Assembly: GCA_040882465.1 (NCBI GenBank)
Contig: JBBEBG010000008.1
Coordinates: 1-48,837, forward strand
From: Gemmatimonadota bacterium
Lineage (GTDB): Bacteria; Gemmatimonadota; Gemmatimonadetes; Longimicrobiales; Gaopeijiaceae
Direction of reading: 5' to 3'
DNA length: 48,837 nt
Shown: positions 13,977-44,825 of the stretch, in pieces
Layout: every line of letters begins with the position of its first letter
Position numbering within the stretch: position 1 is the stretch's first letter
The notes under the pieces: model-generated
What the model was told of the DNA's origin: nothing
Database searches by the model: none
The model's input: only the letters and a program-made list of their open reading frames with translations
Translations under genes and position numbers: made by a program

Positions 13977-16955
13977 ATGTTCCATTCGCGAGGCGTCCTG
14001 CTGGTCGCCGCAGTCCTCTATTTCCTCCCGCTCCACGCTACGTCCCAGACGGTGACGATCCGTGTGGGACAAACGATTACCGACCGGCTCACCCCTGCGG
14101 ATCGGACGCTCTCCGACGGATCGTATTTTCACCAGCATGTCTACGCCGGCTCGATGGGGGACGAGATCGTCATCACCCTCACGTCTCCGGAATTCGACGC
14201 CTTCCTGATGTGGGGGCTTCTTGCGGACGGACAGTTCGAGTCCGCGACTTCGGACGATGACGGCGGCGGCGGGACGAATTCTCAGATCCGGACGACGGTG
14301 GGGGCCGGGACTTTCGCGATCCGGGTGAACAGCTTCGGGGCGGCGGAGGCTGGTGCGTACACGCTCACGGTAGAGAGGGCTGGGGGAGTGGCCCTGAGCG
14401 GGGACGCGGCGGCGTGGATGATTGGACCCGGCGAGACGGTGACGGGGCGTCTCGGTCCGGACGACTCGCTCTTCGACGGGGATCAGTACTACGAATGGTT
14501 CGATTACGAGGGTGCCGCAAGCGAGGAGGTCGTCATCACGCTCCGGTCCCCGGACTTCGACACCTATCTGACGCTGATGGAGTGGGTCGCTGATTCGCTG
14601 GAGGTCGTCGCGTCGGACGACGACGGGGGCGGCGGGACCGACTCGCAGCTTCGTACGGTGATCGGGCCCGGGATCTACACGGTGGATGTATCGTCTTACG
14701 GCACGGAGGAGATCGGCGCGTATTCCCTGACTGTCGAGCGCGCGGGCGGCGTCGTGGCTGGAGGGGGAGGCGGCCAGGTGGCCCCCGGGGAACTTCCCTC
14801 GATCTTCGCCGGCCAGCCGGTGAATGCACGGCTCGAATCGTCCGATCCGACCTTGGACGATGGGTCGCACTTCAAGATCTACCTGTACCGTGGACGTCCG
14901 GGCGAGCAAATCGTCGTGACGATGCGGTCGAGCGACTTCGATGCCTTTCTCACGGGCGGCAACTGGGACGGGAGCCAGCTGGCCTCGTCCGAGACCGACG
15001 ACGATGGCGGCGGCGGGACGGACGCGCGCCTCGCTGCCACGATCGGTGGAAACGGCACGTACGCGATCACAGCGAATTCCTACGGCGCAGGGGCGACCGG
15101 CGCCTTCACCCTCACGGTCCAGCCCAGCCTTCCGCCGAGCCAGACCATCGGTGCGAGTGGGCGCACGATCGCGCCGGGGCAGACGGTCACCGGGCGGCTT
15201 GCCGCCGGCGATCCACAGTTGACGGACCAGTCGTATTACCACGCGTACAACTTCAATGGACGCGCGGGGGACCGGGTCCTCGTTACCCTGACCTCTCCGG
15301 ACTTCGATTCCTATCTTGTCTGGGGACGGCGCCTGGGGGGCGAATTCGAGCGCCTCGACTTCGACGATGACGGGGGGGGCGGAACGAATTCTCAGCTCGA
15401 GGTGAGCCTCGCCGAGTCTCGCACTTACGAGATCTGGGTGAACTCCTACGGCGCCGCGGAGACAGGCGCATACACCCTTTCCGTCGAGGGGTCGGGCGGG
15501 ACATCCGGACTCCCGCTCGTCGCGCTGGGCCAAACGCTCACCGATCGTCTTACGTCGAGCGATCCTACTCTGAACGACAATTCGCACTTCAAGGTCTTCC
15601 TCTACCGCGGGACTCCCGGGGAGCAGCTGCTCGTCACAATGCGCTCGAACGACTTCGACGCATACCTCTCGGGCGGGCGGGTCGTCAGTGAACGCTTCGA
15701 GCCCGAGGTGAGCGACGACGACAGCGGAGGGGGGCGGGACGCCCAGATCCTCGCGACCGTTGGGACGGGCGGGACGTACGCGATTCGCGCGAACTCCTGG
15801 TCCGAGGCCGAAACAGGCCAGTTCACTCTGACGGTGGAGCCGATCGGCGGTGCGCGCCCGAATACGCCGACGATTCCCGCCGGGCAGCCGGCTGTCGCTC
15901 CCGGAGACCGCGTCAACGGCGCGCTCCGCGCCAGCGACCCCATGCTCGGGGACAGCTCCTTCTACAATCAGTACACGTACCGCGGGAATCCGGGAGACCG
16001 CCTCCGCATCACCCTCATTTCGACCGAGTTCGACGCGTACCTCCGGTGGGGGCTGGTCGAGGACGGTCGGGTCCAGGCCGAGGCCTACGACGACGACAGT
16101 GGAGGGGGGACGAACGCGCAGCTCGAGGTGACCGTCGGCGGGACCGGAACTTACGCGGTCCAGGCAAACTCGTTCAGCGCTGGGCAGACCGGCGCATACA
16201 CGCTCACGGTCGAGCGGCTGGCGACGGGAATGGTCGTCGTGGCGCCGGAGTCGCCGGCGGGGTTCTCAGGGAAGTGGATGCACGCATACGTGGATTCCAT
16301 GGACCCAGCGTTCCGGAGCCTCGCCCAGCGCGTCAAGCAGTGGCGTCCCCTCGAAGACATGACCGACGACCTCAACCGGACGTATCCCCTTCCGCGAAAC
16401 GTCCACGTCGCCATGGACGAGTGCGGGGTCATCAATGCCTACTATAGCCCGCGCGACGCCGAGATCGTCTTCTGCTACGAGCTGATCGAGTATCTTGCGG
16501 ACCAGTTCGCGCCTTCGGACACCTGGACGGTGGACGAGCAGGAGGCGGTGCTGGGAGCGATCCACTTCATCCTCCTGCATGAAGTGGGTCACGCGCTCGT
16601 AGACCAGCTCGACATCCCGATCACCGGACGGGAGGAAGACGCGGTGGATCAACTCGCGACCGTGACCCTCGTCGCTCTGGGGGAGAAGGGCGCAGTGGCG
16701 GCGCTTCGTGGCGTCGAAGCGCTTCAGCCCGATGGGAACAACTTCGACGATTCGGACTTTGCGGACGAGCATTCCCTCGGGCCCGTTCGCCTCTACAACG
16801 TGGCCTGCTGGGTCTACGGCTCGAACCCGCAGCGGTATTCCAATCTCGTCACTGGCGGATTCCTCCCTCAGGAGCGCGCCGCCCGGTGCACCTCGGAGTG
16901 GGAGCAGATGCAGAAGTCCTGGGAGCGCCTTCTGGCCCCCTACACGCAGCAATGA
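13977..16955 (+). CDS. Secreted zincin (DUF4344) with six PPC repeats
   Basis: The 992-residue product has a signal peptide (about residues 1-24). Six tandem domains of about 120 residues follow, each with GQ-x-(V/L)-x-x-RL, a central F/Y-D-(A/T/S)-(F/Y)-L strand, a DDDGGGGT-type loop and a final GAYTLTVE strand. The DDD loops start at residues 93, 214, 341, 463, 580 and 705. They match bacterial pre-peptidase C-terminal (PPC) domains. The last 230 residues are a peptidase of the DUF4344 type: HEVGH at 868-872, then DIPITGREEDAVDQLA, whose Glu or Asp would be a third zinc ligand. It is probably an extracellular or periplasmic protease. Its stop overlaps the aguB start (ATGA). Confidence 0.82.
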   Translation: MFHSRGVLLVAAVLYFLPLHATSQTVTIRVGQTITDRLTPADRTLSDGSYFHQHVYAGSMGDEIVITLTSPEFDAFLMWGLLADGQFESATSDDDGGGGTNSQIRTTVGAGTFAIRVNSFGAAEAGAYTLTVERAGGVALSGDAAAWMIGPGETVTGRLGPDDSLFDGDQYYEWFDYEGAASEEVVITLRSPDFDTYLTLMEWVADSLEVVASDDDGGGGTDSQLRTVIGPGIYTVDVSSYGTEEIGAYSLTVERAGGVVAGGGGGQVAPGELPSIFAGQPVNARLESSDPTLDDGSHFKIYLYRGRPGEQIVVTMRSSDFDAFLTGGNWDGSQLASSETDDDGGGGTDARLAATIGGNGTYAITANSYGAGATGAFTLTVQPSLPPSQTIGASGRTIAPGQTVTGRLAAGDPQLTDQSYYHAYNFNGRAGDRVLVTLTSPDFDSYLVWGRRLGGEFERLDFDDDGGGGTNSQLEVSLAESRTYEIWVNSYGAAETGAYTLSVEGSGGTSGLPLVALGQTLTDRLTSSDPTLNDNSHFKVFLYRGTPGEQLLVTMRSNDFDAYLSGGRVVSERFEPEVSDDDSGGGRDAQILATVGTGGTYAIRANSWSEAETGQFTLTVEPIGGARPNTPTIPAGQPAVAPGDRVNGALRASDPMLGDSSFYNQYTYRGNPGDRLRITLISTEFDAYLRWGLVEDGRVQAEAYDDDSGGGTNAQLEVTVGGTGTYAVQANSFSAGQTGAYTLTVERLATGMVVVAPESPAGFSGKWMHAYVDSMDPAFRSLAQRVKQWRPLEDMTDDLNRTYPLPRNVHVAMDECGVINAYYSPRDAEIVFCYELIEYLADQFAPSDTWTVDEQEAVLGAIHFILLHEVGHALVDQLDIPITGREEDAVDQLATVTLVALGEKGAVAALRGVEALQPDGNNFDDSDFADEHSLGPVRLYNVACWVYGSNPQRYSNLVTGGFLPQERAARCTSEWEQMQKSWERLLAPYTQQ

Positions 16956-17893
16956 CGGAGGTCGCAGGCGGCCCGAATGGGGGCGAGGGACCGTTCGGGA
17001 TCGGGGTGATCCAGCTCGCGGTCGGGGCGGACCGGGAAGCGACCATCGCGGCCCACGAAGAGGCGATCCGGGCGGCGGCGGCCAAGGGCGCGCAGGTGAT
17101 CTGCCTCCAGGAGCTTTTCGACGCCCCCTATTTCTGCAAGGTGGCGGACGCGGAGCGCTTCGACCTCGCGGAGCCCATCCCCGGACCGACGGTGGCGCGC
17201 ATGCAGGCGTTGGCGCGCGAGTTGGAAGTCGCGCTCATCGTCCCGATTTTCGAAAGGCGAGACGCAGGGGTCTATCACAACTCCGCGGCGGTCGTGGACG
17301 CCGACGGATCCCTCCTCGGAGTGTATCGCAAGATGCACATCCCCGACGATCCCCTCTATCACGAGAAGTATTACTTCGCTCCCGGGGACATCTACCATCA
17401 TGGGGCGGCCCCCGGCGCGGCCGCGGGCTTCCGCGCCTTCGACACCCGGTTCGGGCGCATCGGAGTCCTGATCTGCTGGGACCAGTGGTACCCGGAGGCG
17501 GCCCGCATTACGGCTCTGATGGGAGCCAGGGTCCTCTTCTATCCGACCGCGATCGGTTGGCATCCCTCCGAAAAAGAGGAATGGGGCGCCGCCCAGGCCG
17601 ATGCCTGGCGCACCATCCAGCGGAGTCACGCCATCGCCAATGGCGTTTACGTGGCTGCGGCGAACCGGATCGGGCACGAGCCGGAGCCGGGGACCGACGG
17701 GATCGAGTTTTTCGGGCACTCCTTCATCGCCGACCCCTTCGGGCGGATAATCGCCGAGGCGGGGACGGAGCCGGCCATCCTGGTCGCCGAGTGTGATCCC
17801 GCGCGAATCGAATACACCCGCCGGAACTGGCCTTTTTTCCGCGACCGCCGGATTGACGCCTACGGCCCGATCCTGAGCCGGTCTCTCTCCTGA
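16952..17893 (+). CDS. aguB: N-carbamoylputrescine amidase
   Basis: This 313-residue nitrilase-superfamily enzyme hydrolyses N-carbamoylputrescine to putrescine, CO2 and ammonia. The catalytic triad is Glu54 (LQELFDAPYF), Lys127 (YRKMHIPDDP) and Cys175 (LICWDQWYPE). Family-specific blocks include YHEKYYFAPGD and the C-terminal RNWPFFRDRRIDAYGP. The first 14 residues are an extension before GIGVIQLAVG, so a start a little further in cannot be excluded. The ATG overlaps the previous stop by 4 bp, and aguA begins 17 bp downstream. Confidence 0.92.
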   Translation: MTEVAGGPNGGEGPFGIGVIQLAVGADREATIAAHEEAIRAAAAKGAQVICLQELFDAPYFCKVADAERFDLAEPIPGPTVARMQALARELEVALIVPIFERRDAGVYHNSAAVVDADGSLLGVYRKMHIPDDPLYHEKYYFAPGDIYHHGAAPGAAAGFRAFDTRFGRIGVLICWDQWYPEAARITALMGARVLFYPTAIGWHPSEKEEWGAAQADAWRTIQRSHAIANGVYVAAANRIGHEPEPGTDGIEFFGHSFIADPFGRIIAEAGTEPAILVAECDPARIEYTRRNWPFFRDRRIDAYGPILSRSLS

Positions 17894-17910
17894 GCCAGGA
17901 AGAAGAGGCA

Positions 17911-18957
17911 ATGGACGGAAGGCGATGGCCGGCGGAGTGGGAGCCGCACGCCGCGACCTGGATCGCATGGCCGCACCAGGAGGCGGATTGGCCGGGAAAG
18001 TTCGAGGCCATCCCCTGGGTCTACGCGGAAATCGTCCGCATCCTCCATCGCTTCGAACCGGTCCACATCCTCGGCGAAAATGAGGCCGGGATCGCGGACG
18101 CGAAGCGGATGCTACTCGCGCACGGCGTGGCACTCGAGCGTTGCCGGTTCCACGCCCTTCCCACAGACCGGTGCTGGCTGCGTGACTCGGCGCCGACCGG
18201 GGTCTTCGGCGCGCGGGGGTTCGAATGGATCCGGTGGAGCTTCAACGCCTGGGCGAAATACGACAACTACCGTGCCGACGCGAAGGTCGCTCCGCGCATG
18301 GCGGAGCTGACTCGACTCCCCCTCGTGGAGGCGAGCCGTCCCGACGGGAGCGGCCCCCTCGTCCTCGAGGGAGGCGGGATCGAAACTGACGGGCGTGGCT
18401 CACTCCTCGTCACGGAGGAGTGGCTCCTCACCGACACGCAGGTGAGGAATCCCGGAATGGGCCGAGAAGAATACGAAGCGGCCTTCCGAGAGTACCTCGG
18501 GATCGGACGGACGATCTGGCTGGGGGAAGGTGCCGTCGGGGACGACACCCACGGTCATGTGGACGACATCGCGCGGTTCCTGGACCCACGAACCGTGGTT
18601 CTCACGGTGGAGCGCGACCCCTCCGATGAAAACCACCGCCGGATGGAGGATAACCGGCGGCGGCTCGAGCTCGCCTCGCGAACCCATCCGGGCGGCTTTC
18701 GAATCGTGGAGCTTCCTTTTCCGGACCCGATCGTGATGGAGGGCGAACGGCTTCCCGCGAGTTACGCGAATTTCTTTCTGGCAAACGGCGTCGCGATCGT
18801 TCCAACTTTTAATGACCCGATGGACCGCGTCGCGCTCGCGACCCTGGCCGAGCACCTTCCTGCGCGCGAAGTGGTGGGGATCCACGCCGTGGATCTCGTG
18901 TGGGGACTCGGGACCTTGCACTGCCTCACTCAACAGGAGCCCGCCGCACCTGTGTGA
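17911..18957 (+). CDS. aguA: Agmatine deiminase
   Basis: The 348-residue product converts agmatine to N-carbamoylputrescine and ammonia, feeding the adjacent AguB. It opens with MDGRRWPAEWEPHAATWIAWPH, the usual start of this family in the guanidino-group-modifying superfamily. Active-site elements are DRCWLRDSAPTG, the LEGGGIETDGRG block, GHVDDIARF with the catalytic His and Asp, and the nucleophile Cys338 in GTLHCLTQQEP. No arginine decarboxylase lies in the window, so agmatine must come from a gene elsewhere or from outside. Confidence 0.93.
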   Translation: MDGRRWPAEWEPHAATWIAWPHQEADWPGKFEAIPWVYAEIVRILHRFEPVHILGENEAGIADAKRMLLAHGVALERCRFHALPTDRCWLRDSAPTGVFGARGFEWIRWSFNAWAKYDNYRADAKVAPRMAELTRLPLVEASRPDGSGPLVLEGGGIETDGRGSLLVTEEWLLTDTQVRNPGMGREEYEAAFREYLGIGRTIWLGEGAVGDDTHGHVDDIARFLDPRTVVLTVERDPSDENHRRMEDNRRRLELASRTHPGGFRIVELPFPDPIVMEGERLPASYANFFLANGVAIVPTFNDPMDRVALATLAEHLPAREVVGIHAVDLVWGLGTLHCLTQQEPAAPV

Positions 18958-21711: not shown

Positions 21712-21740
21712 TTGACGCGACCTGGGGGCAAGGGTAAACT
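21712..21740 (+). promoter_or_regulatory. Sigma-70 promoter ahead of the GAF-to-aminoacylase gene run
   Basis: TTGACG (21712-21717) is separated by exactly 17 bp from TAAACT (21735-21740), in the gap between divergent ctaA and the GAF gene. The predicted leader to the ATG at 21782 is about 35 bases. This is the best promoter match in the window and could drive the nine-gene run that ends at 32590. Confidence 0.6.
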
Positions 21741-21781: not shown

Positions 21782-22252
21782 ATGCTGAACCCGACAGATC
21801 TCGTGCACGGCTTACAGGACATGAGGGATCAGGGGTATCTCTCCGATGCCCTCCTCCGCCACGCCGTAAGGACGATCGCGGGTTCCGACGACCGATTCGA
21901 CTGGGTCGGAGCTTTCCTGCTGAGGGAGGATGGGGTGACCCTCTGGCTCCACGACTACGTCGGGGCGCCGGCCGAATACGCCGAAGTTCCGGTCGGAGTC
22001 GGAGTGGCGGGGGCCGCGGTTTCGGCGAAGGAAAACCGGACCGTGGGAGACGTGACCAAAGTGGACGACTATCACCCCTGCAGCCCCGAGATCCAGTCGG
22101 AGCTGGTCGTCCTGATTCGCGCCGGAGACCAGGTCTTCGGCGGGCTCGATCTCGGGAGCGAACAGCCCTCCGTCTTCACCGCGGCGGACGAGTCGGCGGT
22201 GGAAGCCATCGCCGAGAAGCTCGCGGAGCAGCTGGTCGCCGAGCGTCGCTGA
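21782..22252 (+). CDS. GAF-domain protein related to free methionine sulfoxide reductase
   Basis: The 156-residue product is a single GAF domain. Its layout, GVGVAGAAVSAKENRTVGDVTKV then HPCSPEIQSELVV and GGLDLGSE, resembles the free methionine-(R)-sulfoxide reductase (fRMsr) type. The family's first catalytic-region cysteine (G-V-C-G) is replaced by Gly-Val-Ala, and only the Cys in HPCSPE is retained. Reductase activity is therefore doubtful; a ligand- or redox-sensing role is possible. It heads the plus-strand run and has a good promoter 35 bases upstream. Confidence 0.7.
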   Translation: MLNPTDLVHGLQDMRDQGYLSDALLRHAVRTIAGSDDRFDWVGAFLLREDGVTLWLHDYVGAPAEYAEVPVGVGVAGAAVSAKENRTVGDVTKVDDYHPCSPEIQSELVVLIRAGDQVFGGLDLGSEQPSVFTAADESAVEAIAEKLAEQLVAERR

Positions 22253-22295
22253 CCTCAATCGGGGTCGGCGGCACCCTCCTTCCAAAAGGTCGGGC

Positions 22296-23135
22296 TTGAT
22301 CGAGCCCCGCATGGTGCGTGCGGAGAACGCGGGTCCCTTCACCCTGGACGGCACCCGCACCTTCATCGTGGGCCGCGACCGCGTCGTGATCGTGGACCCG
22401 GGCCCGGACGACCCACGACATCTCGAACGGGTCGCCGGGGAGGCGCGGGGCGCCGAAAGCGGTTGGATCATCCTGACCCACGGGCACCCGGACCACGCCG
22501 CGGGGACCCGAACGCTGGCTCGAATGACCGGGTTTCCGGTAGGGGCGCCCCTCGGCGGGGTGGACCGGCGTCTCGAGGGCGGGGACGAAGTGCCGGCGGA
22601 CGGCGGTGCCCTGATTGCGGTCGCGACTCCCGGGCATGCGCGCCACCATCTCGCCTTCCACTGTCCCCGTGATGGGGGCGAAACCGGTGGCGACCTCTTC
22701 GTCGGCGATCTCCTTCTCGGCGTGGGGAGGACGACCTGGGTTGGGGAGTATCCGGGGTGCGTCGCCGATTACCTGGCCTCGCTCGACCGGGTGGAGCGCC
22801 TCGTCCCGGATCGGATCCTCCCGTCGCACGGCCCGGTCCTCGATCGCCCCCTCGAAGTCGTGGCGGCGTTTCGTGACCACCGGCGAGCCCGCATCGAGGC
22901 GGTCGAAGGAGCACTGGCCGACCTCGGGCACCGGGCGACCCTCGGCAAGGACGAGGAAGTGTGGCCACTCGTGGAGACACTCGTGAAACGTGTCTACGGA
23001 GATCGGCTCGAGGGCCGGCCGCTGGTGGGGGCCCGATGGAGCGTTCGAGCCATCCTGGAGTATCTGGGCGTTGCCCCCTTTCCTCCGGAAGGGGCCCCGA
23101 GCGAGGGAGGTGGCCGCCTCGCTCCCGGATCCTAG
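22296..23135 (+). CDS. Metallo-beta-lactamase-fold hydrolase
   Basis: The 279-residue product has the zinc motif THGHPDHAAG (His62, His64, Asp66, His67), further ligands in ATPGHARHHLAF, FVGDLLLGV (Asp) and ILPSHGPV (His). The N-terminal block ENAGPFTLDGTRTFIVG and the C-terminal helical extension (about residues 205-265) resemble the LACTB2/RNase-like or hydroxyacylglutathione-hydrolase-like subgroup. The substrate is not evident. The start is a TTG at 22296 with AAAGGT upstream; an ATG at 22311 is an alternative. The glcD gene follows after 35 bp. Confidence 0.82.
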   Translation: MIEPRMVRAENAGPFTLDGTRTFIVGRDRVVIVDPGPDDPRHLERVAGEARGAESGWIILTHGHPDHAAGTRTLARMTGFPVGAPLGGVDRRLEGGDEVPADGGALIAVATPGHARHHLAFHCPRDGGETGGDLFVGDLLLGVGRTTWVGEYPGCVADYLASLDRVERLVPDRILPSHGPVLDRPLEVVAAFRDHRRARIEAVEGALADLGHRATLGKDEEVWPLVETLVKRVYGDRLEGRPLVGARWSVRAILEYLGVAPFPPEGAPSEGGGRLAPGS

Positions 23136-23170
23136 TCCAAGTCAAGGCCGAAACCCTTTCGCCTCCGCCG

Positions 23171-24586
23171 ATGCCCCTGGATCCCACACTCGCGCGTCAA
23201 CTCACACAAGTCGTGGGAGAGGAAGGAATCCTCGCCGACGAGGACCGCCTCATCGTCTATGAGTCGGATGCCCTCACGCAGTATCGCCATCGCCCATCGG
23301 CGGTCGTCCTCCCACGTACGACGGAAGAGGTGAGCTCGGTCATCCGCATCCTGCACGCGGCCGGTCATCCCTTCGTCCCGAGGGGGAGCGGAACGGGGCT
23401 CAGCGGGGGCGCGCTCGCCGTCGGGGGCGCGGTCGCGGTCGGGACGAACCGGATGAACAAGATTCTCGAGCTCGACGCTGCGAACCGGAGGGCGCGAGTG
23501 CAACCGGGCGTGATCAACTCCGATCTGACCCGCGCCTCCCTGGTCCATGGGCTGATCTACGCCCCCGATCCCTCCTCCCAAGCGGCCTGCACCCTCGGCG
23601 GGAACGTCGCCGAGAACTCCGGAGGACCGCACTGCCTCAAGTACGGCGTCACGACACGTTACGTGACAGGACTGACCGTCGTCCTGTCGGACGGCGAGAT
23701 CGTGGAGCTCGGGGGAATGGACCACGGGGACGACGGGCTCGACCTCGTCGGGGTCTTCGTGGGATCCGAGGGGTGTTTCGGACTCGCGACCGAGATTGAG
23801 ATCGCTCTCATTCCCCAGGCCGAGGGGGTTCGCACCCTCCTGGGGATCTTCGCCTTGATGGAGGATGCGGGGCGCGCGGTCACGGACATCATGGCTCGGG
23901 GGATGCTTCCCGCCGCCCTCGAGATCATCGATTCCGAGACGATCCGGGCGGTCGAGGCCTCGATCTTCGCCGCAGGTTATCCGAAGGATGCCGGAGCGGC
24001 GCTCGTGGTCGAGTTCGACGGAATGGACGCGGCACTCGACGAAGAGGTGCGAGCGGCGGTGGAGTGTTGCGAGCGAGCGGGCGCCCGCGAGATCCGGACG
24101 GCTTCCAACGAGGAGGAGCGGCTCGCTCTCTGGCGGGGGCGGAAAAAGGCCTTCGGGGCGATGGGGCGGCTCGCCCCGGACCTTCTCGTACAGGACGCCA
24201 CCGTTCCCCGCACGCGGCTCCCGGAGGTGCTCGTGAAGATAGGTGAGATCGGCCGCCGGTACCGGATCCAGGTGGCGAACGTCTTTCACGCCGGGGACGG
24301 AAACCTCCATCCGAATCTCCTCTTCGACCGCCGCGACAAAGACGAGGTGCGCCGGGTCGAAGCGGCCTCGAAGGAGATCATGGAGGCCTGCATCCAGGCG
24401 GGCGGGACCATCACCGGGGAACATGGCGTGGGCCTCGACAAACGGAACTACATGCCCCTGGTGTGCTCGCACGAAGTCCTGGAGGCGATGGCCCGCGTAA
24501 GGGATGTCTTCGATCCGGCCGGGCTCTCGAATCCGGGGAAGGTTCTCCCCGATGGGTACGCCGCAGTGCCGGCCGGGGCCGCATGA
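23171..24586 (+). CDS. glcD: Glycolate oxidase FAD subunit GlcD
   Basis: The 471-residue product oxidises a 2-hydroxy acid such as glycolate or D-lactate. Residues about 38-217 form the PCMH-type FAD domain, with PRGSGTGLSGGALAVGG and CTLGGNVAENSGGPHCLKYG as FAD-binding loops. The C-terminal FAD-oxidase domain has NVFHAGDGNLHPNLLFD and GTITGEHGVGLDKR, the metal/substrate site. It ends in SNPGKVLPDG, usual for GlcD. Its stop overlaps the glcE start by 4 bp (ATGA), and glcF follows, giving the three-subunit GlcDEF enzyme at the membrane. Confidence 0.92.
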   Translation: MPLDPTLARQLTQVVGEEGILADEDRLIVYESDALTQYRHRPSAVVLPRTTEEVSSVIRILHAAGHPFVPRGSGTGLSGGALAVGGAVAVGTNRMNKILELDAANRRARVQPGVINSDLTRASLVHGLIYAPDPSSQAACTLGGNVAENSGGPHCLKYGVTTRYVTGLTVVLSDGEIVELGGMDHGDDGLDLVGVFVGSEGCFGLATEIEIALIPQAEGVRTLLGIFALMEDAGRAVTDIMARGMLPAALEIIDSETIRAVEASIFAAGYPKDAGAALVVEFDGMDAALDEEVRAAVECCERAGAREIRTASNEEERLALWRGRKKAFGAMGRLAPDLLVQDATVPRTRLPEVLVKIGEIGRRYRIQVANVFHAGDGNLHPNLLFDRRDKDEVRRVEAASKEIMEACIQAGGTITGEHGVGLDKRNYMPLVCSHEVLEAMARVRDVFDPAGLSNPGKVLPDGYAAVPAGAA

Positions 24587-25878
24587 CTCCGGCGACGACA
24601 ATGACCGATCCGGCTGCCATCCGGGCCCGCGTCCGGAAGCTCCTCGACTCCGATGGGGCGCCTCAGGATGGGAGGGCACCGGTGGCCGCGCCCTCGACCG
24701 CCGAGGAGGCGGCCGCCCTCCTCCGCGTAGCCCGCGAGGAGGGTTGGAAGGTCCTGCCCGCGGGGAACGGGGTGGGCGCCGGGATCCGGCCTGCACACGC
24801 CCCACTCTCCGCCTCGGGGGCGCACGAGGGCGCGGCGGAACCGGACCTCACGATTTCCACCTCTCGCATGGCCGTGCTCATCGAGCATGAGCCGGCGGAT
24901 CTAACGATGCACGCGGGAGCGGGGCTCACCCTAGGGGCGCTCCAAAAGGGGGTGGCGAACGCGGGTCAGTGGCTGGCGCTCGACCCTCCCGGTGGGGAGG
25001 GGATCACCCTCGGCGGGATCGTGGCAACGGGGACGGGCGGCCCGCTCCGCGTCTCGCACGGCCGGCCGCGCGACCAGCTCCTCGGCCTGACGATGGTGGA
25101 CGGTGCGGGCCGGATCCTCTCGCTCGGGGGGCGCGTCGTGAAGAACGTCGCGGGATTCGACCTCGTGCGGCTCGCCACGGGAAGCCTCGGGGCCCTCGGC
25201 CTGATCACCCAGGTCATCTTTCGGCTCTATCCCCTTCCGGAGGATGACCGAACGCTGGTCTGGTCGCGTGGCCGGGCGGATGAGGCGTGGGAGCTCGGGC
25301 GGTCTCTCGCGACCCTTCCCCTTCCGGTCGCGGCCGCCGAGCTCCTCGCCGGCGAAAAAGAAGCCCCCCTCGACGACTCGGGAGTGCGGGTCCTCTTACG
25401 CCTCATGGGTTCGAAGCGCGCCGTGGCCCGGATGCGGGAGGTCCTCCTGGAAAAGGTGGGACTTCCCGTTCGCGAACTCGAGGGGCCCGACTCGGCGGCC
25501 GCGGCCCGCATCCTCGCCCGTGACGACGGCGCGGGGGCGGTCACCTTCCGGGCGCACGCGCTCCCCGATCGCGGGGGAGCGATCGCTGCGGCCCTTGAGG
25601 GCGTGCCCCTCAGGCATCTGGCGATGCATCTCCTCGAGGGCACCTTCCGGGGGACTCTCCTTCCTGACGCGACAGTCGAGGCGCTTGCCGGGGTCGGCAA
25701 AGCTGCCCGCTCCGTGGGAGGTTCGCTCCGTGTCCTCCGAGCCCAGGGGGCGATCCCCGTGGAGATCGAGGGGGGAGGCGAGCCGTCCGCGGCCGTGGCC
25801 CGCCTCCACGCGGGGATCACCCGTGGGTTCGATCCGGGGGGGATCCTCCCAGGAGCCTGGAGGGAGGGGTGGAAGTGA
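24583..25878 (+). CDS. glcE: Glycolate oxidase FAD-binding subunit GlcE
   Basis: The 431-residue product is a shorter, divergent FAD-domain relative of GlcD. It shows TAEEAAALLRVAREEGWKV, the pyrophosphate loop LPAGNGVGAG, then DLTISTSRM, LTMHAGAGLTLGALQ and GITLGGIVATGTGGP, and the segment RGRVVKNVAGFDLVRLATG-like block (GGRVVKNVAGFDLVRLATG). These match GlcE. The C-terminal half is poorly conserved, as usual. It probably works only together with GlcD and GlcF. The 4-bp overlaps on both sides indicate translational coupling. Confidence 0.9.
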   Translation: MTPATTMTDPAAIRARVRKLLDSDGAPQDGRAPVAAPSTAEEAAALLRVAREEGWKVLPAGNGVGAGIRPAHAPLSASGAHEGAAEPDLTISTSRMAVLIEHEPADLTMHAGAGLTLGALQKGVANAGQWLALDPPGGEGITLGGIVATGTGGPLRVSHGRPRDQLLGLTMVDGAGRILSLGGRVVKNVAGFDLVRLATGSLGALGLITQVIFRLYPLPEDDRTLVWSRGRADEAWELGRSLATLPLPVAAAELLAGEKEAPLDDSGVRVLLRLMGSKRAVARMREVLLEKVGLPVRELEGPDSAAAARILARDDGAGAVTFRAHALPDRGGAIAAALEGVPLRHLAMHLLEGTFRGTLLPDATVEALAGVGKAARSVGGSLRVLRAQGAIPVEIEGGGEPSAAVARLHAGITRGFDPGGILPGAWREGWK

Positions 25879-27287
25879 GAGACGCGGGAGTGGAGCGGAG
25901 ATCGGTTCGCCCGCCGGCGGACTCTGAAAGAGCGCTCGGGGGAGCGCTCGCCGCGCAGGACGACCGACTTTCCAACTGCGTGCACTGCGGGTTCTGCCTC
26001 CCGGTGTGCCCCACCTATGTCCGGCTCTACGACGAGGCGGACTCGCCGAGAGGACGGCTCCACCTGATGCGCGCGGTCGTGGAGGGGCGGCTCGATGCAG
26101 GCTCGGACGCCTTCCAGCGCCACATCGATCGGTGTTTGGGGTGCCGGGCGTGCGAGACAGTGTGCCCCTCGGGGGTGGAGTACGGCTTCCTTCTTGAGCG
26201 CGCTCGGGAGGTGGCGGGGGATGCGCGCCCGCTGTCGGGGGCCTCAGCCCTTCTTCTGACAGCGATCCGAACCCCATCCCTCTTCCGGGTCTGGATGGGG
26301 GCGAGCCGTCTCCTCCGTTGGAGCCGGATCTCATCGGTCCTGGCGCGCCTCCTCCCCGGGTGGGGGCCGCTGAAGGTGCCCCGTTTGGGAATGGCGATGC
26401 TCGCGGCCTCGCTTCCCTGGCGGGTCCCGCGCGGAACCATCTCGGCTGAGGTCGCCAGGAGGGCGGAGACCGGGGGGTCCCCATCCGGAGCGACGCGACG
26501 GGACACCTCTCGCTCGGAGCGGCCCAAACGGAAGGGGCGGGTCGCCTTTCTGACCGGATGCGTGCAGGACCACCTCTTCCGCAGGGTCAACGAAGCCACC
26601 GCGCGAGTGCTGGCGGCGAACGGATGGGAGGTCGTGGATGTCCCCGGCCAGGGGTGCTGCGGTGCCCTTCACGCTCACGGCGGTCAGCTCGCGGTGGCCC
26701 GTGACCTCGCGAGAGTCAATCTCGCGGCCTTCCACGCCGCGGGGGTGGACTGGATCATTACGAACGCCGCCGGGTGCGGAGCGACGATGCGCGAGTACGA
26801 TCACCTGATGGAGGAGGGAAGTCCCGAAGACCGGGAAGCGGGCGCCTGGTTTTCCCAGCGAGTGCGTGATATTTCCGAGATCCTCGCGGGGGAAGGGCGA
26901 AAGCCGCTGCAGGGTGGCGCCCTTCCGATGCGGGTGGCGTACGACCCTCCCTGCCATCTCCTGCATGGACAGCGGGTCCGGAATCCGCCCCTGGACCTCC
27001 TTCGCTCCATTCCGGGGCTTGAACTCGTGCCTGTCCCTAACGGGGACGAGTGCTGCGGGGGAGCGGGAATCTACGGGATCACCCACCCGGATCTGGGCGG
27101 AAGGGTGGGAGGTGACAAGGTCATCGCGGTGAGGAGCACAGGTGCCGCGGTTCTCGCCACGGGGAATCCGGGGTGCGCGATGCAGATCGGAGGCGGCCTC
27201 CGCATCCAGGGATCGCACATCCAGGTGGCCCACCCCGTCGAGCTTCTCGACGAGAGCTACCGGAGGGGGGGTGTCTACGCCCGGTGA
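25869..27287 (+). CDS. glcF: Glycolate oxidase iron-sulfur subunit GlcF
   Basis: The 472-residue product carries electrons from the GlcDE flavins toward the quinone pool. Two 4Fe-4S motifs are intact: CVHCGFCLPVCP (Cys37, 40, 43, 47) and CLGCRACETVCP (Cys89, 92, 95, 99). Two cysteine-rich CCG domains follow, with GQGCCGALHAHGG and DECCGGAGIYG. A Ser/Arg-rich insert at about residues 200-225 separates the two halves. The GTG start at 25869 overlaps the glcE end; a GTG six bases on is also possible. The peptidase gene begins inside its last 17 bases. Confidence 0.92.
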   Translation: MEVRDAGVERRSVRPPADSERALGGALAAQDDRLSNCVHCGFCLPVCPTYVRLYDEADSPRGRLHLMRAVVEGRLDAGSDAFQRHIDRCLGCRACETVCPSGVEYGFLLERAREVAGDARPLSGASALLLTAIRTPSLFRVWMGASRLLRWSRISSVLARLLPGWGPLKVPRLGMAMLAASLPWRVPRGTISAEVARRAETGGSPSGATRRDTSRSERPKRKGRVAFLTGCVQDHLFRRVNEATARVLAANGWEVVDVPGQGCCGALHAHGGQLAVARDLARVNLAAFHAAGVDWIITNAAGCGATMREYDHLMEEGSPEDREAGAWFSQRVRDISEILAGEGRKPLQGGALPMRVAYDPPCHLLHGQRVRNPPLDLLRSIPGLELVPVPNGDECCGGAGIYGITHPDLGGRVGGDKVIAVRSTGAAVLATGNPGCAMQIGGGLRIQGSHIQVAHPVELLDESYRRGGVYAR

Positions 27288-28449
27288 TCACACCCTCGTA
27301 AGGCTCCGGGATCTCGCACGGGCGAAGGAGGAGGCGTGGGTCTCGCTCGTGGAGGAGCTCGTCGGGATCGAGTCTCCCTCTTCGGTTCCCGCCGCCCAAG
27401 CCCGCGTGCAAGAGGTGATGGCTCGGAACCTCGAGGGGCTGGGTTACCAAATCCGCCGGATTGGCGGGAAGGCCACCGGCGACGTCCTGCTCGCCCTTCC
27501 CCGCAAGGATGTCCGCCGGAGTCCGCAGCTCCTCCTCGGACACACGGACACGGTCTGGCCAGTGGGGACCCTGGGAGTGATGCCCGTTCGCCGCGAGGGG
27601 GACCGGCTTTTTGGTCCCGGAGTCTTCGACATGAAGGCCGGACTCGCGCAGATTGTCCTCGCTCTCCAGCTTCTTCTCGAAGTAGGGCTGTCACCCGAGG
27701 TGCCGCCGGTGGTCCTCCTCAATTCCGACGAGGAGCTCGGAAGCCCGGAATCCACTCCATCCATCCGGCGTTGGGCCGCGAAGTCCTGCAGAGTCTTCGT
27801 GCTCGAGCCGGCGCTCGGTGCGGAGGGAAGGCTCAAGACCTCGCGGAAGGCGTCCGGGACCTTTCGCCTGCGGGTGATCGGGAGAAGCGCGCACGCCGGC
27901 CTCGATCCCGATCGTGGGGCGAGCGCGATCGAGGAGCTGGCCGGCGACATCCTCGCGCTTTGCGGGCTTTCCGATCCTCCGCGGGGGATCCGGGTGAACG
28001 TAGGGAAGATCCGTGGCGGCGAGACTTCCAACACGGTGGCCGCGGAGGCGGAGGCGGAGGTGGATGTCCGCGTGACGCATCGCGAGGACGCCGCCCGGAT
28101 CGAGGCCGCGATCCGGGGATTGGAGCCCCGCCTGGAGGGGTGCCGGCTCGAAGTCCATGGGGGATTCGTTCGGCCGCCATTCGAGCGGACCGCCGGCACG
28201 GCCGCCCTCTGGGAGGAGGCGAGGGGATTGGCCCTACGGATGGGGATCGAGTTGCGGGAGGGGATGGCAGGGGGAAGCTCCGACGGGAACACGACCGCCC
28301 CGATCGCCCCGACCCTGGACGGCCTTGGTGCGGTCGGAGACGGCGCACATGCCGCGCACGAGCATGTGGAAGTCGGACGGTCCCTCGATCGCGGCGCCCT
28401 CCTCGCGGCTCTCCTGCTCGCGCCCGCCCCGATGAGGCCGCATCGTTAG
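27271..28449 (+). CDS. M20-family metallopeptidase (carboxypeptidase G2-like)
   Basis: The 392-residue product starts at a GTG at 27271 after a CGGAGGGGGG stretch, overlapping the glcF end. The dinuclear zinc ligands are seen in LLGHTDTVWP (His91, Asp93), GVFDMKAG (Asp120), NSDEELGSPES (Glu154 base, Glu155 ligand) and AHAAHEHVEV near the end. The dimerisation domain begins at SGTFRLRVIGRSAHAG. This arrangement matches glutamate carboxypeptidase/CPG2-like hydrolases that release an N-acyl group or C-terminal residue. With the racemase and D-aminoacylase downstream, an N-acyl-L-amino-acid hydrolase is a reasonable guess. Confidence 0.87.
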   Translation: MSTPGDHTLVRLRDLARAKEEAWVSLVEELVGIESPSSVPAAQARVQEVMARNLEGLGYQIRRIGGKATGDVLLALPRKDVRRSPQLLLGHTDTVWPVGTLGVMPVRREGDRLFGPGVFDMKAGLAQIVLALQLLLEVGLSPEVPPVVLLNSDEELGSPESTPSIRRWAAKSCRVFVLEPALGAEGRLKTSRKASGTFRLRVIGRSAHAGLDPDRGASAIEELAGDILALCGLSDPPRGIRVNVGKIRGGETSNTVAAEAEAEVDVRVTHREDAARIEAAIRGLEPRLEGCRLEVHGGFVRPPFERTAGTAALWEEARGLALRMGIELREGMAGGSSDGNTTAPIAPTLDGLGAVGDGAHAAHEHVEVGRSLDRGALLAALLLAPAPMRPHR

Positions 28450-28551
28450 CGGGTCGCCCTCGCGGCAAGGGCTTCGAGGAACCTGGAGCGGAGTTGGCCG
28501 GTTCAGGGGATGGGCGAGGGAAGGGCCGCCACAGCTACGAAAGGGACCCAC

Positions 28552-29778
28552 ATGGTATCCGATCACGATCGTAAACGAACCCGTCGGCTCGCCGTTCTCG
28601 GATCCGGTCCGGTGGGGCTCGACGCCGCCCTGGCCGCGCTCGACGCCGGCTACGACGTCGCCGTTTACGAGGCTTCGGGGCGCCCGGCAGCAAATGTGCG
28701 GGACTGGGGGCACGTGCGACTCTTTTCCCCCTGGGGGATGAACGTGTCGCCGCGGATGGAGCGTCACCTCGCCGCGATCGGCGCCCCGCTCGAGGTGGAC
28801 CGGGAGGTCACCTCCACCGGGTGGGAGCTCGCCGACCGGGTGCTCGATCCCTTGTGGGCCGAGACCCCGCTCTCCTCCGTCCTCCGGCTCGGGACCCGCG
28901 TCGTGGCGGTCGGGAGGGAGGGCACGCTCAAACACGAGGAGATCGCGACCCCCGAACGGGCGAGCCGCCCCTTCCGGATCCTCCTCCAGGACGAGTCGGG
29001 ACGCGAGTGGGTGGAGCGGGCGGACGTCGTTCTGGACTGCACCGGGAAATACGGAAACCCGAACACGCTCGGGGACGGCGGGATTCCCGCTCCCGGTGAA
29101 CGTGGTCTGGGGGATCGGATCCAGTCACGCATCCCGGACCTCGACGGGGGGACCGAGGAGTGGGCGGGGAGGACCGTCCTCCTGGCCGGCTCGGGCCACT
29201 CCGCACAGACGGTGGCCCGGGACTTCGCCGCGCTCGGCGCCGAGCGTCCGAATACCCGGGTGATCTGGGTCCTCCGGAAGACGCATCCCGACTGGGGCGC
29301 AGTCGCGGGAGATCCTCTCCCGCAGCGGAGGGAGCTCACCGACGCGGCCGAGTCGCTCGCGGCCGGGGCTTCCCCCGTCGTGCGGCCCCGGCCGGGATCG
29401 GTCGTGGAATCGATTTCGCGTGAAAACGGGGGGATCCGGGTCCGATTGCGACAGGGGGGCGGAAGCGAGGAAGAATTTCATGTAGACCGCATCGTTTCGC
29501 TGACGGGCGGGGTCGGGGACGACACCATTTATCGCCAGCTCCAGGTCCATGAGTGTTATGCCTTCAGCGCGCCCATGAAGCTGTCGGCCGCCCTCCTCGG
29601 CGCAGCGGGCGGGGATTGCACGCAGCAGGAGAGCCACGGAGTGGACGCACTCAAGAATCCGGAACCGAACTTCTTCATCCTCGGCGACAAGTCGTATGGG
29701 CGGAACAGCACCTTTCTTCTCCGGGTGGGTTGGCAACAGGTGGACGAGGTCTTCGAGGAGCTGGAACGGGCCTTGTGA
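28552..29778 (+). CDS. FMO-like FAD/NAD(P)-binding oxidoreductase
   Basis: The 408-residue product has an N-terminal FAD Rossmann motif, LAVLGSGPVGLDAALAALD, and a second nucleotide-binding motif LLAGSGHSAQTVARDF in the middle, the two-Rossmann layout of flavin monooxygenases and CzcO/YpdA-type reductases. DCTGKYGNPNTLG resembles their linker. The FMO fingerprint FxGxxxHxxx(Y/F) is not evident. The end FFILGDKSYGRNSTFLLRVGWQQVDEVF is distinctive. The substrate is unknown. The start at 28552 follows AAAGGGA. Its stop overlaps the GTG of the racemase gene by 4 bp, so the two are probably coupled in translation. Confidence 0.75.
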   Translation: MVSDHDRKRTRRLAVLGSGPVGLDAALAALDAGYDVAVYEASGRPAANVRDWGHVRLFSPWGMNVSPRMERHLAAIGAPLEVDREVTSTGWELADRVLDPLWAETPLSSVLRLGTRVVAVGREGTLKHEEIATPERASRPFRILLQDESGREWVERADVVLDCTGKYGNPNTLGDGGIPAPGERGLGDRIQSRIPDLDGGTEEWAGRTVLLAGSGHSAQTVARDFAALGAERPNTRVIWVLRKTHPDWGAVAGDPLPQRRELTDAAESLAAGASPVVRPRPGSVVESISRENGGIRVRLRQGGGSEEEFHVDRIVSLTGGVGDDTIYRQLQVHECYAFSAPMKLSAALLGAAGGDCTQQESHGVDALKNPEPNFFILGDKSYGRNSTFLLRVGWQQVDEVFEELERAL

Positions 29779-30890
29779 GAGTCACGGGCGCCGAGTTACT
29801 CGAAGTCCGACTGACACTTATGGAGCCGTTCGCCTCGAGCGCGGGCCCCCGGTCGGAACGGCGGATCCTCCTCCTGCGAGTGCGGGGAGAGGAGGGGTTG
29901 GAGGGGTGGGGGGAGTGTGTGGCGGGCGAGACGCCGGCCTATTCTCCCGAGACTACGGAGACCGCCTGGCTCGTCCTCACCGAGTTCATCCTCCCTTCGG
30001 TGGTGGGGCGAGAAATCTTGGGGCCCGAGGAAATCCTGGCGCCCGTGTCGTGGGTCCAGGGACATTCCATGGCGAAGGCGGCCGTCGAGATGGCTTACTG
30101 GGACCTTCAGGGGCAGGAGAGCGGGGTCCCCCTCTGGGAGCTCCTCGGGGGTTCGGGCGACGCGGTTCCGGTCGCCTGCGCGGTGGGGCTCCAGCCGAGC
30201 CGCGAAGCGCTCCTCGAGCGGATTGAGGCGGCGCTCGAACGTGGTTATTCCGCGGTGAAGCTGAAGATCGAGCCCGGCCGGGAGGCGGAAATCGCCGGCG
30301 CCGCCAGAGACCGATTCCCCGACGCTTCGCTCGCCGTGGACGCGAACGGGGCATACGCGGGGCGGGACGGGAGCCGGCTGGAGGCCCTGGACCGGCTCGG
30401 GCTTCTCTGGATCGAGCAACCCCTCGGCCGTATGGACTTCTTGGGGCACGCCCGACTCCAGAAGAAGCTTCGCACGCCGATCTGCTTGGACGAATCGATC
30501 GGATCTCCCGAGGAACTCCGCCTCGCCCTCGAGCTGGGCTCCTGTGGAGCAGTCAGCGTCAAACCGGGGTTGTTGGGGGGCCACCGCGTGGCGCGGGAGT
30601 TGCACGACATCTGCCGTGACAGAGGGATCCCGGTCCGGTGCGGGGGAATGCTGGAGTCGGGGATTGGCCGTGCACACAACCTCGCCCTCACGACCCTCCC
30701 GGGGTTCACGCTTCCGGGGGACATCTCGGAGTCGCGGCGGTACTGGATTCGGGACATCGTGACACCGGAATTCGAGCTCCGGGACGGAAGGATGAGGCCC
30801 CCCTCCGCGGCCGGGATCGGGGTGGCGCCAGACCTCGCCTACATCCGGGAACACGCCGTCCGGCGCGCAGAATTCGGGGTGAACGAATGA
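29775..30890 (+). CDS. N-acylamino-acid racemase / o-succinylbenzoate synthase family
   Basis: The 371-residue product is an enolase-superfamily enzyme of the NAAAR/OSBS branch. The active site is complete: Lys162 and Lys164 (VKLKIEPG), metal ligands Asp189 (VDANGAY), Glu214 (WIEQPL) and Asp239 (CLDESIGS), and Lys263 (SVKPG). These positions nearly coincide with Amycolatopsis NAAAR/OSBS. The block RCGGMLESGIGRAHN is diagnostic of this branch. Enzymes here either make o-succinylbenzoate for menaquinone or racemise N-acylamino acids. No men gene lies nearby, and the next gene is a D-aminoacylase relative, so the racemase role is favoured. Confidence 0.87.
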   Translation: MRVTGAELLEVRLTLMEPFASSAGPRSERRILLLRVRGEEGLEGWGECVAGETPAYSPETTETAWLVLTEFILPSVVGREILGPEEILAPVSWVQGHSMAKAAVEMAYWDLQGQESGVPLWELLGGSGDAVPVACAVGLQPSREALLERIEAALERGYSAVKLKIEPGREAEIAGAARDRFPDASLAVDANGAYAGRDGSRLEALDRLGLLWIEQPLGRMDFLGHARLQKKLRTPICLDESIGSPEELRLALELGSCGAVSVKPGLLGGHRVARELHDICRDRGIPVRCGGMLESGIGRAHNLALTTLPGFTLPGDISESRRYWIRDIVTPEFELRDGRMRPPSAAGIGVAPDLAYIREHAVRRAEFGVNE

Positions 30891-32590
30891 GAATCATGCT
30901 TTTGGTTCTGTATACTATCTTGGGGGCCGTAGGGGCGGCCGCGCAGGTGGCTTCCGCCGAGGATCCCTGGGACGTCCTCCTCGTCGGCGGCCGCCTCGTG
31001 GACGGGACGGGGAACCCCTGGCGATTCGCGGACGTGGCGCTCCGGGGGGACCGCATCGCGGCCATTGCGCCCCCCGGGCTCCTGTCGCGGGAAAACGCCC
31101 GGGAGGTCGTGGACGTCCGTGGCCTCGTCGTGGCCCCGGGGTTCATAGACCTGAACGGTCAGTCGGACGAGCGGTACCTCGAGGATGGGTCCGCCCTCTC
31201 GAAAACCTTCCAGGGTGTCACGACGGAGATCATGGGGGAGTCCAACACCCCGGCCCCCGTCAACGGACGAACCCTCGGCTGGGTGAACCCGGCCGATCCC
31301 GTCGCCGTCCGGCGCTCCAGCGAGTGGAGGCGCTTCGGCGCCTGGCTGGAAGAGATGGAGGCGGGCGCGGTCGCGGTGAACGTGGGGTCGTTCTTGGGGG
31401 GGACGACCGTCCGGCGTTACGCCATGGGCGCGGCGCTCGGAGCCCCGAGCACGGCCGAACTGGACACGATGCGGGCGGTCACGGCGCGGGCGATGGAGGA
31501 CGGCGCATTCGGGGTAGCCACTGCCCTGATTTACCCGCCGGGCGCCTACGCCGGCACTGAGGAGCTGGTCGAAATCGCTCGGGTCGTCGCGCAGTACGGG
31601 GGGGTCTACATCACCCACCTTCGGAGCGAGTCCAACCGGATCCTCCAGGCGATCGACGAGGCCGCCGACATTGGCGAGCGGGCGGGAGTTCCCGTCGAGA
31701 TCTACCACCTGAAGGCGGCCGGAGTCGAGAACTGGGGCCTCACGGAGGAGATCGTCGCGCGCATCGAAAGCGCCCGCGCTCGGGGAGTGGACGTGGGAGC
31801 GGCGATGTACCCGTACACGGCGGCCTCCACCAGCCTCACCGCCTGCTTCCCTCCCTGGAGTCAGGCTGATGACCGCCTCTTCCCGAACCTCCGGGACCCG
31901 GACGCGCGGGCGCGGATGCGCGAGGAGATGCTGGGGCCACCCTCTGACTGGGAAAACTGGTGCCGGCTCGCCACGCCGGAGGGGAGCATCGTCTCGACCG
32001 TGTCGCGGCCGGAGCACCTTCCCCTCATCGGCCGGACCCTGGAGGAAGTGGCGCTCACTCTGGGGTCGGCGGACTGGGTGGAAGCGGCGATGGACCTCGT
32101 TCTCCGGGACGGCTCCAATGTCGGGATGATCTACTTCGCGATGTCGGAGGACGCCGTTCGGCGGAATCTCACCCTACCCTGGATCAAGTTCGGGACCGAC
32201 GGCGCCGGCTGGAATCCAACGGGGGGAGGAGGGCAGCCGCACCCCCGCGCCTACGGCACCTATCCCCGCATCCTCGGCCACTATGTGCGCGACGAGGGCG
32301 TCCTCCGCCTCGAGGACGCGATCCGTAAGGCGTCGTCCGCGGTGGCGGACCGGATCGGGCTCCGCGAGCGGGGCACCGTGCGTCCCGGATACTTCGCGGA
32401 TCTCGTCGTCCTGGACCTCGGCGCGGTGGAGGAGCGGGCGACCTACGAGCGTCCGCACCAACTCGCCGAGGGAGTCGTGCACCTCTTCGTGAATGGCCGG
32501 GCGGTCATTCGTGACGGCGTGGCCACCGAAGCCCGTCCCGGCCGTTTCCTCCGGGGACCCGGGGCGACTTCGCTCACCCCTCCCAACTGA
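30887..32590 (+). CDS. Exported D-aminoacylase-type amidohydrolase
   Basis: The 567-residue product belongs to the N-acyl-D-amino-acid deacylase branch of the amidohydrolase superfamily. A signal peptide covers about residues 1-24. The TIM-barrel metal histidines are present in ITHLRSES (His244) and IYHLKAAG (His274), as is the Asp in GTDGAGW (Asp438). The usual HxH after PGFID is replaced by LNGQSD, and the cysteine of the GNCG loop is Glu (EIMGES). I recall a subgroup with PGFID-x-x-GQS and E in that loop, so these look like subgroup features rather than decay. Export separates it from the cytoplasmic racemase to which it is joined by a 4-bp overlap. Confidence 0.85.
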   Translation: MRIMLLVLYTILGAVGAAAQVASAEDPWDVLLVGGRLVDGTGNPWRFADVALRGDRIAAIAPPGLLSRENAREVVDVRGLVVAPGFIDLNGQSDERYLEDGSALSKTFQGVTTEIMGESNTPAPVNGRTLGWVNPADPVAVRRSSEWRRFGAWLEEMEAGAVAVNVGSFLGGTTVRRYAMGAALGAPSTAELDTMRAVTARAMEDGAFGVATALIYPPGAYAGTEELVEIARVVAQYGGVYITHLRSESNRILQAIDEAADIGERAGVPVEIYHLKAAGVENWGLTEEIVARIESARARGVDVGAAMYPYTAASTSLTACFPPWSQADDRLFPNLRDPDARARMREEMLGPPSDWENWCRLATPEGSIVSTVSRPEHLPLIGRTLEEVALTLGSADWVEAAMDLVLRDGSNVGMIYFAMSEDAVRRNLTLPWIKFGTDGAGWNPTGGGGQPHPRAYGTYPRILGHYVRDEGVLRLEDAIRKASSAVADRIGLRERGTVRPGYFADLVVLDLGAVEERATYERPHQLAEGVVHLFVNGRAVIRDGVATEARPGRFLRGPGATSLTPPN

Positions 32591-43170: not shown

Positions 43171-43428
43171 ATGGTGGATCCTGAATTGCTGGAAATTTTG
43201 GTGTGTCCGGAGACGAAGGCGTCGGTTCACCTGGCCGAGAAGTCCCTACTCGACCGCGTGAACCTTGAAATAGCCGAAGGGCGCTTGACCACGCGTGGCG
43301 GTAAGGCGGTCGCGGAAGAGTTGGAGGCCGGACTGGTCCGAGAGGACGGCCGGCTCCTCTACCCGATCCGGGATGGGATCCCGGTCATGCTCATCGACGA
43401 GGCGATTCCTCTCGACGAATTGTCTTGA
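43171..43428 (+). CDS. Trm112/YcaR-family small protein
   Basis: The 85-residue product starts MVDPELLEILVCPETKASV and ends LLYPIRDGIPVMLIDEAIPL. Both are hallmarks of the Trm112-like family, which serve as small partners of methyltransferases in other organisms. Bacterial forms often have a Cys pair in the first zinc-knuckle; here one Cys (Cys12) is visible and the second is absent, so zinc binding is doubtful. The start at 43171 is preferred over the upstream in-frame ATG at 43147. It precedes the oxidase operon by 82 bp. Confidence 0.85.
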   Translation: MVDPELLEILVCPETKASVHLAEKSLLDRVNLEIAEGRLTTRGGKAVAEELEAGLVREDGRLLYPIRDGIPVMLIDEAIPLDELS

Positions 43429-43467
43429 GGGATCCGCCGGTGAGCGCCGGCCCTTCCCCGTCTCCGA

Positions 43468-43473
43468 TATAAT
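43468..43473 (+). promoter_or_regulatory. Perfect -10 element (TATAAT) before ctaC
   Basis: TATAAT lies 37 bp before the ctaC ATG at 43511, in the 82-bp gap after the Trm112 gene. No good -35 box lies 16-18 bp upstream (the bases are GC-rich), so this would need an activator or is a weak match. It is the most AT-rich point of the gap. Confidence 0.4.
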
Positions 43474-43510
43474 CTCGGTTCAGGCCGGCTCGAGTGGGTC
43501 GGCTCGTTGG

Positions 43511-44788: not shown

Positions 44789-44825
44789 CCGGTCGGACGA
44801 CGCCGCCAGAGAGGAAGACGAGATC

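Follow-up and report, generated by a model that had tools for sequence, protein, structure and literature searches.

What does a gene that looks like an N-acylamino-acid racemase do in a genome where its usual partner is missing? The question is raised by a nine-gene cluster on a contig of 48,837 nucleotides from a Gemmatimonadota bacterium, analysed here at full length and referred to as the window. A preliminary description, made from the sequence alone, proposed that the racemase, an L-side M20 hydrolase and a D-side deacylase use N-acyl amino acids of either configuration, with GlcDEF perhaps oxidising a D-2-hydroxy acid derived from the products. Our analysis suggests instead that the "racemase" most likely serves as the sole o-succinylbenzoate synthase (OSBS) of the cell, acting in menaquinone (vitamin K2) synthesis.

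Organization of the cluster

An ORF check of the window recovered all nine open reading frames, on the plus strand and in the order first described, spanning 21782–32590 (Table 1). The coordinates also bore out the overlaps of 4–17 bp: 4 bp for GlcD/GlcE (ATGA), 10 bp for GlcE/GlcF and 17 bp for GlcF/M20, with 4 bp for both flavoprotein/MenC (GTGA) and MenC/amidohydrolase (ATGA). The two chained blocks, said to lie about 100 bp apart, were found to be separated by 60 or 102 bp, depending on which flavoprotein start is used. The one good promoter proposed for the run corresponds to a sigma-70-like site that does exist; it is, however, a weak match to consensus, and two sites of that quality occurred in 13 kb against 0.4 expected. 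The site is at most suggestive of a promoter for the run. The top NCBIfam match of the MBL-fold protein was gloB, far under its cut-off.

Elsewhere in the window, a carbon-nitrogen hydrolase gene adjoins a PAD_porph (agmatine-deiminase-type) gene (16886–18957), presumably the usual putrescine pair. At 43295–46652 lies a fusion of cytochrome oxidase subunit II with a cytochrome c domain, and subunit I comes next.

Table 1. Features of the nine-gene cluster and its flanking site, in window coordinates.
Feature	Position	Strand	Basis
Sigma-70-like site, TTGACG-17-TAAACT	21712..21740	+	9/12 consensus positions matched in a scan; spacer of 17 nt
GAF-domain protein	21782..22252	+	PF13185/PF01590 over cut-off; upstream of MBL in relatives too
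MBL-fold metallohydrolase, GloB-like	22296..23135	+	PF00753 over cut-off
GlcD-like FAD subunit of 2-hydroxy-acid oxidase	23171..24586	+	TIGR00387 473.6 bits, cut-off 567.9
GlcE-like FAD subunit	24583..25878	+	NF008439 148.9 bits, cut-off 284
GlcF-like Fe-S subunit (2x4Fe-4S, CCG domains)	25869..27287	+	NF008434 282.1 bits, cut-off 333; PF02754
M20 metallohydrolase, metal ligands intact	27271..28449	+	PF01546/PF07687
Gap; site of GNAT N-acyltransferase in most relatives	28450..28551	+	Comparison with L040, L042, L043, L085 etc.
Two-dinucleotide-fold flavoprotein, ArsO-type relative	28552..29778 (possible earlier start 28510)	+	Pyr_redox_2
Probable MenC (o-succinylbenzoate synthase), NSAR/OSBS subfamily	29775..30890	+	TIGR01928 301.7 bits, cut-off 200.65
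Codons K263-P-G-L266, Leu (ttg) replacing R266	30561..30572	+	Sequence alignment
D-aminoacylase-like amidohydrolase, apparent N-terminal signal peptide	30887..32590	+	Homology to D-aminoacylase 1m7j

The cluster as a probable remnant of a D-to-L amino acid module

The host genome (3.53 Mb, 99.56% complete) was compared with 33 other genomes of the same family; a search of named genomes gave Gemmatimonadota MAGs as the nearest relatives. The order M42-GAF-MBL-GlcD-GlcE-GlcF-M20-...-RAC, where RAC is the racemase gene, was kept at most same-family loci examined. The genes are not scattered in these relatives; scattering was what the preliminary description had named as contrary to its proposal. 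The conservation of the order GAF-MBL-GlcDEF-M20-(GNAT)-(flavoprotein)-RAC indicates that the arrangement is not due to chance. Variation fell between M20 and RAC. A GNAT acyltransferase is found there in most relatives (present in 28/34 same-family genomes, usually at this position), and some add a P-loop gene, a flavoprotein, or both. The complete nine-gene set was rare, the flavoprotein and the amidohydrolase being accessory. A search for GNAT homologues detected none at the locus or anywhere in the host genome, though other N-acyltransferases are possible.

Pairing of GNAT with RAC extends to Acidobacteria, Chloroflexi, KSB1 and Actinobacteria. GNAT was present in 51/80 named loci, 13 of which also carried M20, as M20-GNAT-RAC. 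We take the GNAT-RAC-M20 arrangement to be the N-succinyl D-to-L amino-acid module of the Geobacillus type, in which D-to-L conversion is reportedly achieved by a GNAT N-succinyltransferase, an NSAR and an M20 deacylase. The window M20 retains its ligand motifs (GHTDT, FDMKAG, DEELGS, LEP, GAHAxHEH), is 43–47% identical to the M20 of actinobacterial M20-GNAT-RAC loci, and by homology belongs to the same family as these enzymes. As judged from gene content and homology, the window cluster is a remnant of the described module, minus its first enzyme, GNAT. The preliminary description knew of no described pathway with this full set; the core of the cluster, GNAT apart, is that of the known GNAT-NSAR-M20 module.

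The P-loop gene has weak similarity to DUF1611 (19.3 bits, under cut-off) and lies between M20 and GNAT at nine loci (L040, L041, L055, L056, L085 and L168–L171). A DgcN-like name for it was dropped because the Pfam match is under cut-off. It often accompanies GNAT and may represent a second type of acyltransferase. No such gene occurs at the window locus; a genome-wide PF07755 probe was insensitive, missing the known gene of G023, so this absence applies to the locus only. At three further loci (L060, L061 and L062), a small Lys/Arg/Pro-rich, histone-H1-like protein is encoded between M20 and RAC, and GNAT lies elsewhere in those genomes.

A single MenC candidate in a genome with menaquinone genes

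The "racemase" exceeds the TIGR01928 equivalog cut-off for o-succinylbenzoate synthase by a wide margin, and its MenC/NSAR-family frame is intact at 371 residues. Identity as a dedicated N-acetyl-D-Glu racemase (DgcA) was rejected, at 73 bits against a cut-off of 400. The gene is the only one of OSBS/NSAR type in the host genome, where the other MR_MLE_C match is the glycolytic enolase. Genes menF-menD-menB-menA are clustered on another contig, without menC; the search took in these four genes. For the futalosine route, no PF02621 gene was found in the host genome. Both routes are known from the phylum: a survey assigns the Men route to some Gemmatimonadota and the futalosine route to Gemmatimonadales (PMC9426454).

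The distribution of these genes among families was informative. Most genomes of family f2 have futalosine genes and no menD and keep RAC, mostly with GNAT, and R266 was present in every sequence read; in most of f2, RAC would have a racemase role only. In G036, also a member of f2, men genes are present, neither a futalosine gene nor GNAT was found, and the RAC residues are L266/R263; this pattern points to a MenC role only. Genomes of family f1 mostly combine men genes, GNAT and R266, and there the racemase probably doubles as MenC. The window genome, with its men genes and L266 and without GNAT, likewise points to a MenC role only. In G031 and G032, its nearest kin in the tree, neither menD nor menB was found above cut-off, both genomes being about 92% complete. 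It is plausible that the men cluster is missing there through incomplete assembly; if real, the absence may point to another role for the enzyme in these genomes.

Loss of R266 and other changes at conserved positions

Catalytic promiscuity has a textbook example in the NSAR/OSBS enzymes, and R266 is regarded as the residue that made racemase activity possible. In the Amycolatopsis enzyme, R266Q is said to cut NSAR activity strongly and OSBS activity moderately, through an effect on proton exchange by K263. The Amycolatopsis protein named "N-acylamino acid racemase" was subsequently recognised to be an OSBS (PMC4215206).

In the window protein, the catalytic lysines K164/K263 and the metal ligands D189/E214/D239 are intact. 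Position 266 is Leu. Among the 112 other homologues that are non-redundant and at least 40% identical, 111 have Arg there, as does every one of the 85 rows in which GNAT lies close by. Five further deviations fall in columns at least 97% conserved: G134A, S136A, D170E, N261S and W288R. The median number of such deviations per homologue was 0, and only G031 has more than the window (ten, including A266). Second homologues of about 32% identity in f2 and f3 were set aside; those read have Lys at 266 and a different motif.

One reading of these six deviations at near-invariant columns is that the gene is decaying and nonfunctional, with MenC supplied from sequence missing in the assembly. Against this stand the unbroken frame, the retention of all catalytic residues, the TIGR01928 score and the completeness of the genome, and we consider decay very improbable.

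Departures from R266 were confined to three proteins: Leu in the window, Ala in G031 and Leu in G036 (37% identity), all from genomes without GNAT. The G036 homologue (L076, 9383–10927, minus strand), whose K263 is also replaced by Arg, is encoded in the only member of f2 with men genes. When aligned, E. coli MenC (b2261) has Leu at the same position. Loss of R266 was seen in 3 of the seven GNAT-less genomes with RAC read and in 0 of 29 GNAT-bearing genomes (Fisher p = 0.005, a test that treats genomes as independent and ignores shared descent). The tree places (G032,(window,G031)) as sister to the GNAT-bearing G023/L085. The window + G031 grouping has modest support (97/59), and both are on long branches. 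This tree suggests that R266 was lost in two events, in the window lineage and in G036. R266 is retained in G028, G032 and G033 in spite of their lack of GNAT; losing GNAT is therefore not in itself enough to remove this residue.

Loss of R266 lowers NSAR activity and does not disprove it. The enzyme could still be bifunctional, acting as OSBS and also racemising N-acyl amino acids that are external or made by another acyltransferase, with M20 deacylating the L-form. Such a dual role would fit the preserved lysines and metal ligands, the retention of an M20 of the GNAT-linked type with all its ligands, and the presence of R266 and GNAT in most same-family relatives. It is harder to reconcile with the genome-wide absence of GNAT, with R266L, N261S, W288R and S136A in or close to the active site, and with the effect reported for Amycolatopsis R266Q. 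Overall, we regard continued bifunctionality as unlikely.

G031 raises a different alternative. The enzyme might, in the lineage of the window and G031, have turned with the flavoprotein, M20 and the exported amidohydrolase to a new reaction on an N-acyl or related substrate, OSBS activity being secondary or lost. G031 shares the GNAT-less M20-flavoprotein-RAC order, and its ten conserved-column changes, its undetected men genes, the long branches of both lineages and the persistence of the 4 bp flavoprotein/RAC overlap could all be accommodated in this way. However, a MenC is required in the window genome, where no second candidate was found, the G031 genome stands at no more than 92% completeness, and the changes fit a loss of NSAR constraint; a new reaction seems improbable. 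Little credence is likewise given to the proposal that, in this clade, an NSAR/OSBS enzyme whose active site has been rebuilt works with the ArsO-type flavoprotein and M20 in an undescribed sequence independent of the GNAT pathway. The exported amidohydrolase with its altered metal site would join this sequence in the window only, and independence from menaquinone would apply to G031 only.

We consider it probable that the window gene is a promiscuous NSAR/OSBS that has reverted to a dedicated MenC. The preliminary description had cited OSBS-only activity in a menaquinone pathway as evidence that would count against it, and the TIGR01928 match, the sole MenC candidate, menFDBA and R266L indicate that this is probably the situation here. 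Descent from a racemisation module and an M20 of the GNAT-linked family remain from the proposed racemase/M20/D-deacylase set. The missing GNAT, the loss of R266 together with five near-invariant residues, and the gene's position as the only possible MenC speak against its present operation.

From the gene content and residue changes, which were observed directly, we infer the following activities and order of events. The ancestor would have carried an N-acyl D-to-L module (GNAT, NSAR/OSBS racemase and M20 L-deacylase) behind M42-GAF-MBL-glcDEF, in a host from a classical-Men family of Gemmatimonadota where the racemase probably doubled as MenC. GNAT would then have been lost in the lineage of the window genome, leaving the enzyme with the menaquinone job alone. 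The active site may have drifted thereafter, R266L taking out the side chain on which the tuning of K263 for proton exchange depends, accompanied by N261S, W288R, G134A and S136A. The present enzyme would be a dedicated o-succinylbenzoate synthase, dehydrating SHCHC, which MenD and MenH produce, to the OSB that MenE and MenB use.

Neighbouring enzymes

The amidohydrolase matched D-aminoacylase 1m7j at 301 bits, and an apparent signal peptide was read by eye rather than by a predictor. Its NxQ motif is a feature of a subfamily whose members adjoin RAC or GNAT in G009, G017 and G021 (loci L043, L048 and L080), and which is probably exported. With an apparent signal peptide and no HxH motif, the protein is an unlikely partner for cytosolic enzymes and may not be a D-aminoacylase. 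The suggested D-side deacylase is thus probably in a different compartment from the enzymes it was meant to serve.

The flavoprotein is 37% identical, over 94% of its length, to FAD oxidoreductases encoded between arsR and an MFS gene on plasmids, and its family recurs beside GNAT and/or RAC in Gemmatimonadota. An AlphaFold model from five sequences (pLDDT 54.6) was too poor for structure search.

GlcD, GlcE and GlcF all scored under their curated equivalog cut-offs. GlcDEF is a homologue of glycolate oxidase and a putative 2-hydroxy-acid oxidase. Its tie to the rest of the cluster is family-wide synteny, with nothing specific linking it to products of these enzymes, as its proposed role in oxidising a D-2-hydroxy acid would have it. 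For M20, the flavoprotein, the exported amidohydrolase and glcDEF, the probable relation to the MenC gene is that of co-transcription, each enzyme having substrates of its own.

Comparison with known systems

R266 has apparently been lost twice where the acyltransferase partner is gone and the menaquinone role stays, a reverse run of promiscuity performed by nature. The window and G036 proteins are natural material for testing the R266 hypothesis, and they caution against calling such genes N-acylamino-acid racemase from homology.

The window resembles the D-to-L module of GNAT N-succinyltransferase, NSAR and M20 in having M20 close to RAC, and differs in that GNAT is gone from both locus and genome. 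DA1 (1m7j) positions H220, H250 and D366 are kept in the window amidohydrolase. However, HxH is replaced by NxQ (SHTH aligned to LNGQ), the C96 region GNCG reads GESN, and the window protein has the apparent signal peptide. The flavoprotein shares two GxGxxG/GxGxS motifs with ArsO-type FAD oxidoreductases of ars operons, but has no ars genes nearby and a conserved YRQLQVHECYA motif of its own. With the NSAR/OSBS subfamily (Amycolatopsis 1sja, Deinococcus 1r0m, Thermus 2zc8 and Listeria 1wuf), the window protein shares KxK, the D/E/D ligands, K263 and full-length homology (2.7e-94 to 2zc8). The Thermus, Listeria and Deinococcus enzymes, however, have Arg at 266 where the window has Leu, and N261, W288, G134 and S136 are also altered. 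Like the dedicated MenC of E. coli, the window protein has Leu at this position in a genome with menF, menD, menB and menA; unlike it, the protein falls by sequence in the NSAR/OSBS branch and is encoded outside a men operon.
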